A stretch of 59,923 nt of DNA, taken from assembly GCA_016869515.1 (NCBI GenBank), contig VGDZ01000011.1:1-59923 (forward strand). Direction: 5' to 3'. The notes under the pieces are model-generated. The model ran no database searches. It was not told the origin of the DNA and worked only from the letters and a program-made list of their open reading frames with translations. The position numbers were made by a program, and so were the translations under genes. Below are positions 10,147 to 58,582 of this stretch, in pieces (position 1 is the stretch's first letter; each line of letters opens with the position of its first letter). Origin of the DNA: Alphaproteobacteria bacterium. Its GTDB lineage: Bacteria > Pseudomonadota > Alphaproteobacteria > VGDZ01.

Positions 10147-11097
10147 CTAGACCGCAGGGGCGGCGGCGTCCACCTTGGCTTGTCGCGCCGCTTGGGCGAT
10201 GCGAATCCGTTCGCGGTGCAGCACGTAAAGCCCGCTGGCCACCACCAGCGCGATACCCCCGAAAGCCAACGCATCGGGCACGTCGTCCCAGATCGCATAG
10301 CCCAAGGCCAGCGACCACAGGATAAGGGCGTAGCGGAAGGGCTGGACCACGGCGATGTCGCCCGAGCGGGTGGCGACGATCAAAAAGAAATAGCCCAGCG
10401 CCAGGAACACCGACGCGCCGGCCACCAGCGCAAGGCCGCGCCCGTCCAGCGGCGCCCAGCCCTCGACCAGCGTCCAAGGGATGCCGAGCAGCGTCACCGT
10501 GGCGGCAGTAGTCAGGGTAATCACGCCCGAGCCGGTGCCGGGCGCGACGCGGCGGGTGACGATGTCGCGCAAGGCGACGAAGGCAAGCGACGTGACGGTG
10601 CTGAGCGACCAGACATTGAAGCCGGCGGGCGTCGGTCGCACGATCAAGAGCACGCCCACAAACCCGACCAGGATCGCGCTCCAGCGCCGCCAGCCGACCT
10701 GCGCCCCCAGCATCGGCACCGCCAGCGCGGTGATCAGCAAGGGCGCCGCCAGCATGATCGAAGAAGCGTTGGCCAGCGGGATGTGCACCAGGCCCATGAT
10801 GAAGAACACGGTCGCACCGACGTCGAGCAGCGCGCGGTGCAGGACCGGCCCCGCCAGCCCCTGGCCCAGCCGCCGCCAATCGCCCGTGGCCAGCACCGCC
10901 AGCCCCACCCAGGCGCAGGCGAACAGGCCGCGCACCAGCATGATCTGGCCGACCGGCAGGCCGGAGGTGGCCAGCTTGACCAACGCGTCGTTGCAGACGA
11001 ACACCGCCGAGGAGGCGATCATCGCCAGGATGGCGCGGGCGTTCGAACCTTTGGGGGGAAAGCTCATGGATCGCGGCGGGGACGAATGCGCGTTCAT
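10147..11097 (-). CDS. DMT-superfamily permease (EamA family)
   Basis: A 316-residue membrane protein with about ten hydrophobic helices arranged as two EamA repeats, a fold used mainly for export of amino acids and metabolites. The first repeat starts at ARAILAMIASSAVFVCNDALVKL, with MLVRGLFACAW in helix 2; the second repeat begins near SVFLALGYFFLIVATRSGDIAVVQPFRY. The gene ends 12 nt before ggt and probably heads the operon. Upstream lie the two large hairpins at 11168-11300. Substrate unknown. Confidence 0.88.
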   Translation of the reverse strand: MNAHSSPPRSMSFPPKGSNARAILAMIASSAVFVCNDALVKLATSGLPVGQIMLVRGLFACAWVGLAVLATGDWRRLGQGLAGPVLHRALLDVGATVFFIMGLVHIPLANASSIMLAAPLLITALAVPMLGAQVGWRRWSAILVGFVGVLLIVRPTPAGFNVWSLSTVTSLAFVALRDIVTRRVAPGTGSGVITLTTAATVTLLGIPWTLVEGWAPLDGRGLALVAGASVFLALGYFFLIVATRSGDIAVVQPFRYALILWSLALGYAIWDDVPDALAFGGIALVVASGLYVLHRERIRIAQAARQAKVDAAAPAV

Positions 11098-11167
11098 AGC
11101 ATCCGTCCCCGCCGGCGCAAGAAGCGAAATTGGAAACTGGCAATGCGGAAAGGCAGCGGTGTTCCTA

Positions 11168-11224
11168 GGGCATGATCAATCTGTCTTGAACCATAGAGTT
11201 CAAGACAGATCGTGAAACATGCCC
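11168..11224. repeat. Large imperfect hairpin, long copy of a dispersed element
   Basis: The outer arms GGGCATG (11168-11174) and CATGCCC (11218-11224) enclose a perfect 12-bp inverted repeat, ATCTGTCTTGAA (11179-11190) and TTCAAGACAGAT (11199-11210), with an 8-nt loop. On the minus strand the element continues 5' to GGATACGAGGGCATG (11232-11218). That 15-mer recurs exactly at 31036-31050, and the closing GATCATGCC recurs at 31057-31065. This indicates a repeated REP/MITE-like element rather than a one-off terminator. Lying downstream of the antitoxin gene, it may also stop transcription. Confidence 0.75.
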
Positions 11225-11239
11225 TCGTATCCTGCTCTG

Positions 11240-11300
11240 GACCGCGATTCACGGTTCATAGGGAATCGCGGCCGTGATTCCCTATGAACCGATCGCGGTC
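11240..11300. repeat. Second large hairpin, 15-bp perfect inner arms
   Basis: A perfect inverted repeat GGTTCATAGGGAATC (11253-11267) and GATTCCCTATGAACC (11276-11290) with an 8-nt loop is nested in outer arms GACCGCGAT (11240-11248) and ATCGCGGTC (11292-11300). It starts 8 nt after the first element's conserved 15-mer. The nonamer AAGCGAAAT occurs just outside the hairpin pair on both sides (11122-11130 and 11304-11312), possibly an imperfect target repeat. No transposase is nearby, so a non-autonomous element is the simplest reading. Confidence 0.7.
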
Positions 11301-11332
11301 TAAAAGCGAAATCGGCGGACTGGGTTGCGATC

Positions 11333-11695
11333 TCACTTTCCCCGCACCGATCCGGCCAGCAGGCGCAGCGTGGTCGCCGGGTCGCGATCGAGCACGGTCA
11401 AAAGCGCGATGGCCGCCGGGTCAGGCCGGACCCTCCCCTGCTCCCAGTTGCGGATGGTCGAGACCGGCACCTTAAGCCGGCGCGCCAACACCTCCTGAGT
11501 CATGGCCAGCCGCGCCCGAATCGTCCGCACGCTCGGTACCGGCGGCCCGAGGCGATCGAGCGGCGGCGCGGTATCGGGATCGGCCGCGATCTGCCGCGCG
11601 ATCGCGGCGCCGGTCGTCGCCCGCAGCCGCGCCCGGTCGACCGACCCCCCGCCGCGGCGCTTGATCTCCGCCAAGGTCGTTCGATAGGCCTTCAT
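11333..11695 (-). CDS. XRE-family HTH antitoxin/regulator paired with BrnT-like toxin
   Basis: A 120-residue protein with a C-terminal helix-turn-helix. MTQEVLARRLKVPVSTIRNWEQGRVRPDP (about residues 70-100) is a Cro/C1-type HTH of the kind in HigA/NadS antitoxins. The N-terminal half (residues 1-55) is basic and then Ala/Asp/Pro-rich, probably the toxin-binding region. The start at 11695 gives an ATGA overlap with the toxin frame, the usual toxin-first operon architecture. It probably represses its own promoter through the palindrome at 11953-11967. The usual BrnT partner BrnA is not an XRE protein, so this is a variant pairing. Confidence 0.8.
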   Translation of the reverse strand: MKAYRTTLAEIKRRGGGSVDRARLRATTGAAIARQIAADPDTAPPLDRLGPPVPSVRTIRARLAMTQEVLARRLKVPVSTIRNWEQGRVRPDPAAIALLTVLDRDPATTLRLLAGSVRGK

Positions 11696-30987: not shown

Positions 30988-31035
30988 GGCCACGACCCTA
31001 GACCAAGCCGCGCGCCCTGGGAATCAGCCAGAACG

Positions 31036-31065
31036 GGATACGAGGGCATGATCGGCGATCATGCC
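31036..31065. repeat. Short copy of the dispersed hairpin element
   Basis: GGATACGAGGGCATG (31036-31050) matches the minus strand at 11232-11218 exactly, and GATCATGCC (31057-31065) matches the other end of that element. The interior here is only 6 nt, against about 40 nt in the long copy. GGCATGATC and GATCATGCC form a perfect 9-bp stem with a GGC loop. The TGA of the 31059-31586 gene lies inside the right arm, so the element forms that gene's 3' end and may act as its terminator. Confidence 0.65.
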
Positions 31066-31586
31066 ATCGGCACCGGCACGCGATAGGCGTTCAGCATCAG
31101 CGCCACCATCTGATACCAGCCGACGATGCCCAGGATCTCGACCCGTCCCTTGTCCCCGAAGCGCGCGCCGACCGCATCGAACGCCGTGTCCTCGATCCGG
31201 CCGCCCTCCAGCGCCTGGCGGACGAAGGGATAAAGCAGCGTCTCGTCGGCGTCCATCGCCGGCGACTCGCCCTGCCGCAGCGCTGTGATGGTTGCCTCGG
31301 GCACCCCGGCCTTGCGCGCTTCCTGCTCGTGGACGTGGCGTTCATAGGCGCTGTCCCAGTGATTGGCGACGATCAGGATCACGAATTCCGACAGCCGCGG
31401 CGGTAAGACGGTGCGATAGCGGGCAAAGGCGCCCAAGGCCTGCGCCGGCGCGGCCAAGCCCGGGCTGCGCAGCAGGATATGGAACGGCGCCGGCACCAAT
31501 TTCCGCGGTCCCGCGGCGATCTGGTCGTAGACCTGCTTCTGTTCCGCATCCAATGCAGCGGGATCGAGCGGTCGAAAGCGTGACAT
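31059..31586 (-). CDS. Carboxymuconolactone decarboxylase family protein
   Basis: A 175-residue all-helical protein of the CMD/AhpD family. The core is ARYRTVLPPRLSEFVILIVANHWDSAYERHVHEQEARKAGV, with the typical helix pair. It lacks the CxxC of AhpD peroxidases, so a thiol peroxidase role is unlikely; relatives include decarboxylases and proteins of unknown function. The start at 31586 follows GGAGG at an 8-nt-range spacing; an earlier ATG at 31619 is upstream of that site. Its last codons fall in the repeat at 31036-31065. Confidence 0.82.
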   Translation of the reverse strand: MSRFRPLDPAALDAEQKQVYDQIAAGPRKLVPAPFHILLRSPGLAAPAQALGAFARYRTVLPPRLSEFVILIVANHWDSAYERHVHEQEARKAGVPEATITALRQGESPAMDADETLLYPFVRQALEGGRIEDTAFDAVGARFGDKGRVEILGIVGWYQMVALMLNAYRVPVPMA

Positions 31587-31786
31587 GCGGTGAGGTCCTC
31601 CAAAAAATCCAGCCACCATCTCGCTGCGGGCACTTTGCCGATGCGGTGCTTCGCCTTCGAACGCCCGCCCCCAACCGGAACCGATTTGGCGGGCGGCTGC
31701 CGGATTCTCGTTACGGAGATCGATCTGTCGGCATGAGATCGCGGGAACTTGAACTCACGCCGCCTGCCCCGCGCCCGCGGCTCGGT

Positions 31787-56665: not shown

Positions 56666-58173
56666 CGCCCGGTCTTGTCCTCGGCCGCCATGATTTCGCG
56701 CAGCCGGGTCTTGAGGATCTTGCCGTAGTTGTTCTTGGGCAGTTCGGCGACGAAGCGGTACCGCTTGGGTCGCTTGAAGCGGGCGATGTGATCGAGGCAT
56801 AGCTGGTCGAGTTCGACCTCGCGCGCCTGGCCGACGACGAAGGCCACCACCTCCTCGCCCCAGTCGGGATGCGGCCGGCCGACCACCGACACTTCGCGCA
56901 CCGCAGGATGGCGCAGCAGCACCTCTTCGACTTCGCGCGGATAGATGTTGGAGCCACCCGAGATGATCATGTCCTTGGAGCGGTCCTTGAGGGTGAGAAA
57001 GCCCTGCTCGTCGAACGCTCCCATGTCGCCGGTGTGTAGCCAGCCGCCGGCCAAGGTCTTGGCGCTGGCCTCGGGATTGTCCCAATAGCCCGCCATCACC
57101 ACCTCGCCGCGGCAGATGACTTCGCCGATCTCGCCGGCCGGCAGTTCGCGCTCGCGCTCGTCGACCACCTTGACCTCGACGTCGCTGCGCGCCTGCCCAG
57201 CCGAGCCCAGCCAAGCCCGCCAGCGCGGATGGTCGCGCAAGGCATGCTGGGCCTTGGTCAGGTGGGTGATGGTCATCGGCGCCTCGCCCTGGCCGTAGAT
57301 CTGGTGCAGCTTGGGTCCCAGCAGGTCGAGCGCCTTGACGCTGTCCTCGACATACATCGGACCGCCGCCATAGATCAGGGTCTTGAGCCGCCGCGTGTCG
57401 GCCGCGCCGGCCGCGCCGTGACCGATCAGCCGCGAGACCATGGTCGGCGCGGCGAAGAAGGTCGCCGACGCCAACTGCGGCATCAAGTCGAAGATCTCGG
57501 CCGGATCGAACCCGCCGCTGTCCGGGATAACATGGGTTCCGCCCTTGGCAAAGAACGGCATGCCGTAGCAGCCCGAACCGTGGCTGAGCGGCGCGGCATG
57601 GACAACGGCATCGCCGGGCGCGATGTGATCAATGTCGGCCAGATAGGACAGGACCATGACCAGCAGATTGCGGTGGCTGAGCATCGCCCCCTTGGGCCGT
57701 CCGGTAGTGCCCGAGGTATAGAACAGCCAAGCCAGATCGGTCGGCGCCGAGGGATAAAGATCCAGCGCATCGGCCTCGAAGCTCCGCCGCCAATCGGCCA
57801 AGCCGATCTCGATCACCGGCAGCGCGCCACCGACCGCGCCCGCCAGATCGGGCGTGGCGAAACACAGCCGCGCGCCGGAATGGCCGAGGATGTAGTCGAT
57901 CTCCTTGGCATGAAGCTTGGCGTTGATCGGCACCGCCGCCAGTCCGGCATGCCATACCCCGCACCAGGCTTCGAGATATTCCGGGCAGTTCTTCATCACC
58001 AGCCCGACGCGGTCGCCCGGCGCAAGCCCGTGGCGTTCGCGCAGGCTGCGGGCGAGGCGCGCCTGGCGATTGGCCAGGCCGCGATAATCCAGCACCGTGC
58101 GCGCCCCCCGCGCCAGCGCCGCGGCCGAAGGCGTGGCGGTCGCGGTCTTGAGGATCAGGCGTGCGAGGTTCAT
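56662..58173 (-). CDS. Class I adenylate-forming acyl-CoA ligase
   Basis: A 503-residue ligase with LFYTSGTTGRPKGAMLSHRN (P-loop), QIYGQGEAP, GWLHTGDMGAFDEQGFLTLKDRSKDMIISGGSNIYPREVEE (hinge) and LPKNNYGKILKTRLRE with the catalytic Lys. Related enzymes activate short-chain, cinnamic or aromatic acids. The first 14 codons plus upstream 25 nt (58131-58198) are repeated 384 bp away at 58515-58582, so something was inserted directly in front of this gene. higA now ends 12 nt upstream. Confidence 0.93.
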   Translation of the reverse strand: MNLARLILKTATATPSAAALARGARTVLDYRGLANRQARLARSLRERHGLAPGDRVGLVMKNCPEYLEAWCGVWHAGLAAVPINAKLHAKEIDYILGHSGARLCFATPDLAGAVGGALPVIEIGLADWRRSFEADALDLYPSAPTDLAWLFYTSGTTGRPKGAMLSHRNLLVMVLSYLADIDHIAPGDAVVHAAPLSHGSGCYGMPFFAKGGTHVIPDSGGFDPAEIFDLMPQLASATFFAAPTMVSRLIGHGAAGAADTRRLKTLIYGGGPMYVEDSVKALDLLGPKLHQIYGQGEAPMTITHLTKAQHALRDHPRWRAWLGSAGQARSDVEVKVVDERERELPAGEIGEVICRGEVVMAGYWDNPEASAKTLAGGWLHTGDMGAFDEQGFLTLKDRSKDMIISGGSNIYPREVEEVLLRHPAVREVSVVGRPHPDWGEEVVAFVVGQAREVELDQLCLDHIARFKRPKRYRFVAELPKNNYGKILKTRLREIMAAEDKTGR

Positions 58174-58198
58174 GGCCGCCGCAGTCTATGCCGCGCGC
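58131..58198. repeat. 68-bp direct repeat, copy A (5' end of CoA ligase gene)
   Basis: This stretch spans the ATG at 58173, the first 14 codons and 25 nt upstream of the CoA ligase gene. It matches 58515-58582 at 66 of 68 positions, offset 384 bp. The two differences are a C/T (58141 vs 58525) and a G/A in the TTGAGGATC segment. The repeats flank the higA insertion. Confidence 0.9.
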
Positions 58199-58476: not shown

Positions 58477-58557
58477 TCAGTGATAGTCGACGATTCTCAT
58501 GCCATACGTCGGGCGCGTGGCGGTTGCGGTCTTGAGAATCAGGCGTGCGAGGTTCAT
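58477..58557 (-). pseudogene. Chimeric mini-ORF: CoA ligase start fused in frame to a HigB tail
   Basis: The 26-codon frame MNLARLILKTATAT then RPTYGMRIVDYH ends 12 nt before higA. The first 14 codons are identical in protein to the start of the CoA ligase at 58173 (repeat copy B). The remainder, ending IVDYH, matches the usual HigB C-terminus. Thus most of higB has been lost and its last codons are joined to a duplicated gene start. It retains the CoA ligase's original upstream sequence, so it is probably translated and leads ribosomes to higA. Confidence 0.7.
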
Positions 58558-58582
58558 GGCCGCCGCAGTCTATGCCGCGCGC
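58515..58582. repeat. 68-bp direct repeat, copy B
   Basis: Second copy of the sequence at 58131-58198. Its end at 58582 is followed by the original-looking intergenic region before the divergent suhB-type gene, suggesting that copy B keeps the ancestral upstream junction and copy A the ancestral gene. Confidence 0.9.

Follow-up and report, generated by a model that had tools for sequence, protein, structure and literature searches.

The Caulobacter CcrM-associated intergenic repeats (CIR), reportedly introduced by Chen and Shapiro in 2003, are said to number up to about 20 copies. A 2007 review (PMC2229807), in the part that concerns them, describes CIR as elements of Alphaproteobacteria with two long arms, a linker, 5'TA3' termini, and GANTC sites, enters their target duplication as "?", and notes that the mechanism of their mobility calls for further information. 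The same part of the review covers RUP, Correia/NEMIS, and ERIC, which like the element studied here are small, noncoding, and folded, with TA termini, but which form stem-loops by pairing of their 5' and 3' ends rather than two arms and a linker (PMC2229807). Excerpts of two further reports describe dispersed intergenic palindromic repeats from other Alphaproteobacteria, namely, RIME (Rhizobium-specific intergenic mosaic elements) and Bru-RS of Brucella (PMC2573895, PMC2266754), and by description the present element resembles both in being such a repeat of this class. The literature searched, which took in few subscription papers, yielded no TA duplication for CIR, RIME, or Bru-RS and no parent of the IS630 family for any of them.

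Here, we describe an alphaproteobacterial element with two independent arms joined by a linker, TA termini, GANTC sites, and a size similar to that given for CIR in the same part of the review (PMC2229807). It is a known kind of repeat, two-arm and CIR/RIME-like, and a new family within that kind, as judged by setting it beside the description of CIR. We consider it probable that the element is a nonautonomous two-hairpin MITE moved by an IS630 (Tc1/mariner) transposase.

The window analyzed, a 59,923-nucleotide stretch of one contig, holds a full-length copy on the minus strand whose 133-bp core lies at 11168 to 11300 between two TAs and is matched by covariance model R1 at 11166 to 11303 (160 bits). 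The core ends were set from 46 aligned copies in the same genome and from the empty sites of related elements; TA is duplicated upon insertion (see below), and the core is therefore what lies between the two TAs. The flanking dinucleotides, at 11301 to 11302 on the left (preceded by T in this copy) and at 11166 to 11167 on the right, are putative target duplications (row L010, TTA-GACCGC...ATGCCC-TAG). Fold z scores and pair counts place the left hairpin at 11240 to 11300, with a 3-nucleotide TGA bulge on its inner side (11249 to 11251); the alignment of genomic copies places the linker, which holds the conserved CAGAGCRGGATACG, at 11226 to 11239; and fold z scores together with an inverted repeat place the right hairpin at 11168 to 11225, with a 5-nucleotide bulge at 11212 to 11216. 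Compared with shuffled sequences, the DNA folds with a z of −8.8 in the left half (11233 to 11310) and −7.4 in the right half (11160 to 11240). A preliminary description had bounded the element at 11168 to 11232, which captures the right hairpin plus the end of the linker, but the unit runs on through the second hairpin at 11240 to 11300; the stem noted inside is present and perfect, though of 13 rather than 12 bp (11179 to 11191 with 11198 to 11210).

This copy is flanked by two minus-strand genes, one for an EamA-type transporter and one for a helix-turn-helix protein. A further hairpin (11074 to 11114; 16-nucleotide arms, 94% complementary) lies over the start of the transporter gene, and a 68-bp direct repeat, 97% identical, occurs at 58131 to 58198 and 58515 to 58582 with a spacing of 384 bp. 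The whole window gave no Rfam match at the gathering score, an Rfam family at the element was rejected after a lax scan of 10900 to 11600 returned weak matches to unrelated families only, and a search for intrinsic terminators found no site at the window copy.

A relic that has lost most of both arms lies on the plus strand at 31001 to 31068 (R1 match at 31004 to 31068, E of 0.006), with a TA beside it at 30999 to 31000, the relic start and this TA being read from the sequence. The two sites share a 15-mer, exact at 11218 to 11232 (minus) and 31036 to 31050 (plus), as the preliminary description had claimed, and at the opposite end of each lies GATCATGCC. In the relic, the two end motifs are six letters apart, in agreement with the 6-nucleotide interior reported for it. 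The TGA stop codon of an open reading frame at 31059 to 31619 (minus) is furnished by this relic.

The window sites are two of many. The exact 15-mer occurs at 56 places on both strands of the 3.69-Mb genome, against none for the reversed control and a chance expectation of about 0.007, and deleted copies (such as L017, L018, L022, and L025) and the 31-kb relic are among the family; the dispersed family with internally deleted members that the preliminary description proposed is thereby borne out. Model R1 gives at least 150 matches in this genome, at least three pairs among those listed overlapping on opposite strands, whereas CIR were reported at up to about 20 copies. The 15-mer places align over approximately 138 bases, and the repeating unit is the two-hairpin element. 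Our alignment took 46 of the 56 places, leaving out the relic (L011), a deleted copy (L025), copies at contig ends (L051 and L053), and copies with one half divergent or lost (L012, L014, L020, L027, L040, and L054). The family consensus reads (C)TA-GACCGCGATCGG..arm..CCGTGAATCGCGGTC-CAGAGCRGGATACG-AGGGCATGA..arm..GATCATGCCC-TA. Flanks differ among the copies, which are thus near-identical short sequences at unrelated sites, as in MITEs. Terminal inverted repeats are weak in this family (GACCGCGATC versus GGGCATGATC) and clear in its relatives, which carry CTAGAGCnnGATCG at both ends. GANTC occurs 2.7 times per element, compared with 0.35 expected from the flanks, and ranges from 1 to 4 per copy.

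Several features of the genomic setting were also seen. L006, L026, L032, and L056 have members of another palindromic repeat family (GCTTGGAACGGCC..GGCCGCGCGCCTTRTGGCGCG..GCCAAGGGC) beside or around them. The L026 copy sits in the loop of such a repeat, which we considered as an in-genome empty site and rejected as not clean, L026 having TA at one side and TT at the other. Close tandem copies (L047; contigs C78 and C80) begin at the end of another copy or within about 70 bp of it. Two contigs, C131 at its end and C134 at its start, terminate inside a copy, so the repeat may break assembly.

Pairing within the arms is retained through sequence change. Across the 46 genomic copies, 97.0% of cells pair, compared with 26 to 44% for slid structures, and 16 of 48 pairs show two-sided change, compared with a shuffled mean of 7.0. 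In a set of 20 elements from many genera (12 of the 31 pattern-found rows, L088, four from the genome under study, and three from G058/G059), 89.6% of cells pair and two-sided change appears at 36 of 55 pairs; in both sets the structures come from single rows of the same alignments and are flattered by this. The covariation score of this set is 0.465, compared with 0.158 for shuffled alignments and at most 0.105 for slid ones. The inner side of each hairpin bears a short bulge, which reads TGA in most elements and CGG in some of the genomic copies, and this placement makes the two hairpins mirror units.

Elements of the same architecture with different arms occur across Alphaproteobacteria. 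A relatives search of 58 genomes, the source genome and 57 related to it no more closely than by class, found matches in the source genome and two others, and a left-hairpin architecture pattern recovered at least 116 stretches from a named genome collection. Among the 80 stretches listed, 76 are presumably alphaproteobacterial, judging from titles and names, and four are titled simply "bacterium" or "Proteobacteria"; class membership was looked up for Peiella and Magnetovibrio, both among the pattern matches. Phenylobacterium and Brevundimonas elements share the left-hairpin pattern. With eight candidates scored per genome, model R2 matched at least 43 of 387 genomes of the class. In the genus of G028, matches were present in all three genomes. 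In a phylum-wide draw, all genomes among the matches listed were of the same class, so this draw holds no control from outside it. Searches with the family itself were negative: positions 1 to 50 kb of Sinorhizobium meliloti pSymB gave no R1 match better than an E of 0.5, plasmid BLAST with the window element gave none, and an exact 24-mer of the linker region was absent from the named collection, which possibly lacks the source genome. Plasmid BLAST with another element returned partial Azospirillum matches only. Other Alphaproteobacteria carry single hairpin units in which a second is not visible (L131, L132, L142, and others), and L199 appears to be a hybrid of two units.

Eight copies of these related elements were compared with related genomes, and four clean empty sites were found in two genera, each with TA in the empty allele and TA-element-TA in the filled one. 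For the copy in G130 on contig C21, the empty site in G213 reads CGCAGCT-TA-AGCACTGG and the filled site CGCAGCT-TA-element-TA-GGCACTGG; for the copy on C6 of G130, the corresponding sequences are GGCGCC-TA-GTTCC in G213 and GGCGCC-TA-element-TA-GTTCC. The G445 copies on C23 (empty in G680, TCACTC-TA-GCGG) and C12 (empty in G677, CC-C-TA-AGGG) have TA on both sides when filled. A third G445 copy, on C76, is not clean, the empty allele in G697 having TT rather than TA; the copy on C5 of G213 is absent from G130 with a junction that does not align; and those on C14 of G213 and C19 of G445 had no usable empty site. Insertion thus duplicates TA in elements of this architecture carried by relatives, from which all of the empty sites come, the source genome having no near relatives among the genomes compared. 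These sites support the MITE half of the "REP/MITE" assignment in the preliminary description. They also distinguish the elements from CIR, for which the relevant part of the review leaves the duplication as "?" (PMC2229807).

The copies in the source genome favor a particular target. TA is present on both sides of 33 of the 46 copies, and the outer bases are C and G in 29 of the 46, compared with 13 CTAGs among the 159 window TAs that lie in stop codons or noncoding DNA (P = 1e-20). The position before TA is occupied by C or T in 45 copies and the position after it by G or A in 43. Within the core, G follows TA on both strands; a copy inserted into the TA of a stop codon therefore leaves TAG, and the gene keeps its stop. 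A coding frame with strong third-position bias enters an element end on 28 of 92 sides, with TA+G in frame on 22, although gene calling by third-position GC is crude and a slightly stricter rule gives 21 sides. Seventeen of the 46 copies are placed at stop codons, five of them on both sides. At the C23 site of G445, three relatives without the insertion have a 314-codon frame that terminates in TAG, and the filled copy keeps TAG in the same frame. We looked for stop-codon enrichment beyond CTAG targeting and saw none, since 8 of the 17 CTAGs in the window are themselves stops, compared with 17 of 46 copies; CTAG targeting and avoidance of genes account for the stop-codon position, and no extra preference is needed. 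Even convergent genes that share a CTAG both keep their stop after insertion.

TA duplication and CTAG preference liken the element to IS630, copies of which in G028, G055, and G213 have TA-GAG[CT] ends; the element differs from IS630 in being 133 bp long without a transposase gene, IS630 elements measuring about 1,060 bp. A CTAG preference of IS630 was reportedly the subject of Tenzen and Ohtsubo in 1991, going by the title. ISY100, a member of the IS630 family, inserts at TA and duplicates it, according to a portion of the report on that element (PMC2170065). Two IS630 elements, each in several copies, are present in G028; the NCBIfam IS630 model matches their proteins, and their ends, with borders taken from aligned copies, are TA-GAGC in four of four cases, a sequence shared with the two-hairpin elements of that genome. 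The TA-GAG[CT] ends of the IS630 copies in G055 and G213 were found by deliberately looking for the motif. Ends of the window family are GACC and GGGC, unlike the GAGC of IS630, and beyond the first bases the likeness between IS630 ends and the element is weak, the best of eight comparisons being matched by 3 of 500 shuffles. The IS630 domain PF13358 is present in 7 of 12 genomes tested; it has no match in the source genome (a 97% complete draft of 166 contigs) and is absent from four others of the 12. Across the class, it occurs in 27 of the 43 genomes matched by R2 and in 85 of the remaining 344, an odds ratio of 5.1 uncontrolled for genome size and kinship. A search for an autonomous element with such hairpins as its ends found no facing pair of units around a gene among the 80 loci listed.

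In the mechanism that we propose, the element would be a MITE devoid of coding capacity, formed of two foldback hairpins in inverted orientation with a short linker between them, and a DDE transposase acting in trans, most probably IS630, would cut it out and insert it at TA. The source genome would once have had an IS630, and its family would move as the relatives' elements do. The transposase may recognize the ends by the hairpins, or the hairpins may be inherited from the transposase's own ends; as a possible side effect, they may form the 3' ends of neighboring mRNAs.

The main rival reading, which we regard as unlikely, is the same MITE moved by an IS5-family (IS427-group) transposase targeting YTAR. 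The outer bases in the source genome fit Y-TA-R (45 of 46 before and 43 of 46 after), and Brucella IS711 is described, in the portion of the report concerned, as targeting YTAR and preferring Bru-RS palindromes (PMC2266754), but the matching TA-GAG ends come from IS630, the family for which insertion-sequence ends were compared. Slightly less likely again is a selected functional RNA or DNA element, acting in mRNA 3'-end protection or in CcrM/GANTC-linked regulation, with mobility secondary. Arm pairing kept through two-sided changes, the many copies at gene ends, and the excess of GANTC over the flanks would all fit such a role. Yet hairpin-templated repair of a DNA palindrome could also produce two-sided change and keep the arms paired, so that a role in RNA is not proven; the window copy has no terminator-like site, and the window has no Rfam gathering match; the stop-codon position is explained by CTAG targeting; and the number of GANTC sites varies among copies. 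Movement as a REP/BIME by a RAYT (Y1 tyrosine transposase), a type of enzyme that the preliminary description suggested looking for, is highly improbable: many copies and inverted hairpin pairs with asymmetric bulges resemble BIMEs, in which inverted hairpins with asymmetric bulges are paired, but PF01797 (Y1_Tnp) is absent from the source genome and the two other element-bearing genomes searched (one of the three a complete single contig; control positive in 5 of 14), which largely refutes this reading, and the TA duplication of the relatives' elements is unexpected from the single-strand mechanism of RAYTs.

An IS630-driven MITE thus remains our preferred reading, with the TT in the empty allele of the G445 C76 copy and at one border of L026 counting against it. 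More tentatively, and with somewhat less than an even chance in our judgment, a single alphaproteobacterial superfamily of two-hairpin, TA-flanked, IS630-driven MITEs may include CIR, RIME, and Bru-RS; the arms would change quickly, with the bulge, the position of the linker, and the TA-G ends conserved, and ends that rebuild stops at CTAG, even at shared stops, would let the elements spread among gene ends with next to no cost to coding sequence.

The two-arm intergenic repeats of Alphaproteobacteria are long familiar, with no explanation of how they move, and the TA duplication and the link to IS630 are relevant to that question. Four empty sites with TA duplication, together with matching IS630 ends, make the mobility claim testable, and the elements can serve as insertion markers when strains of poorly sampled lineages are compared. 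That stop codons are rebuilt offers a simple explanation of how such repeats can accumulate where genes end.
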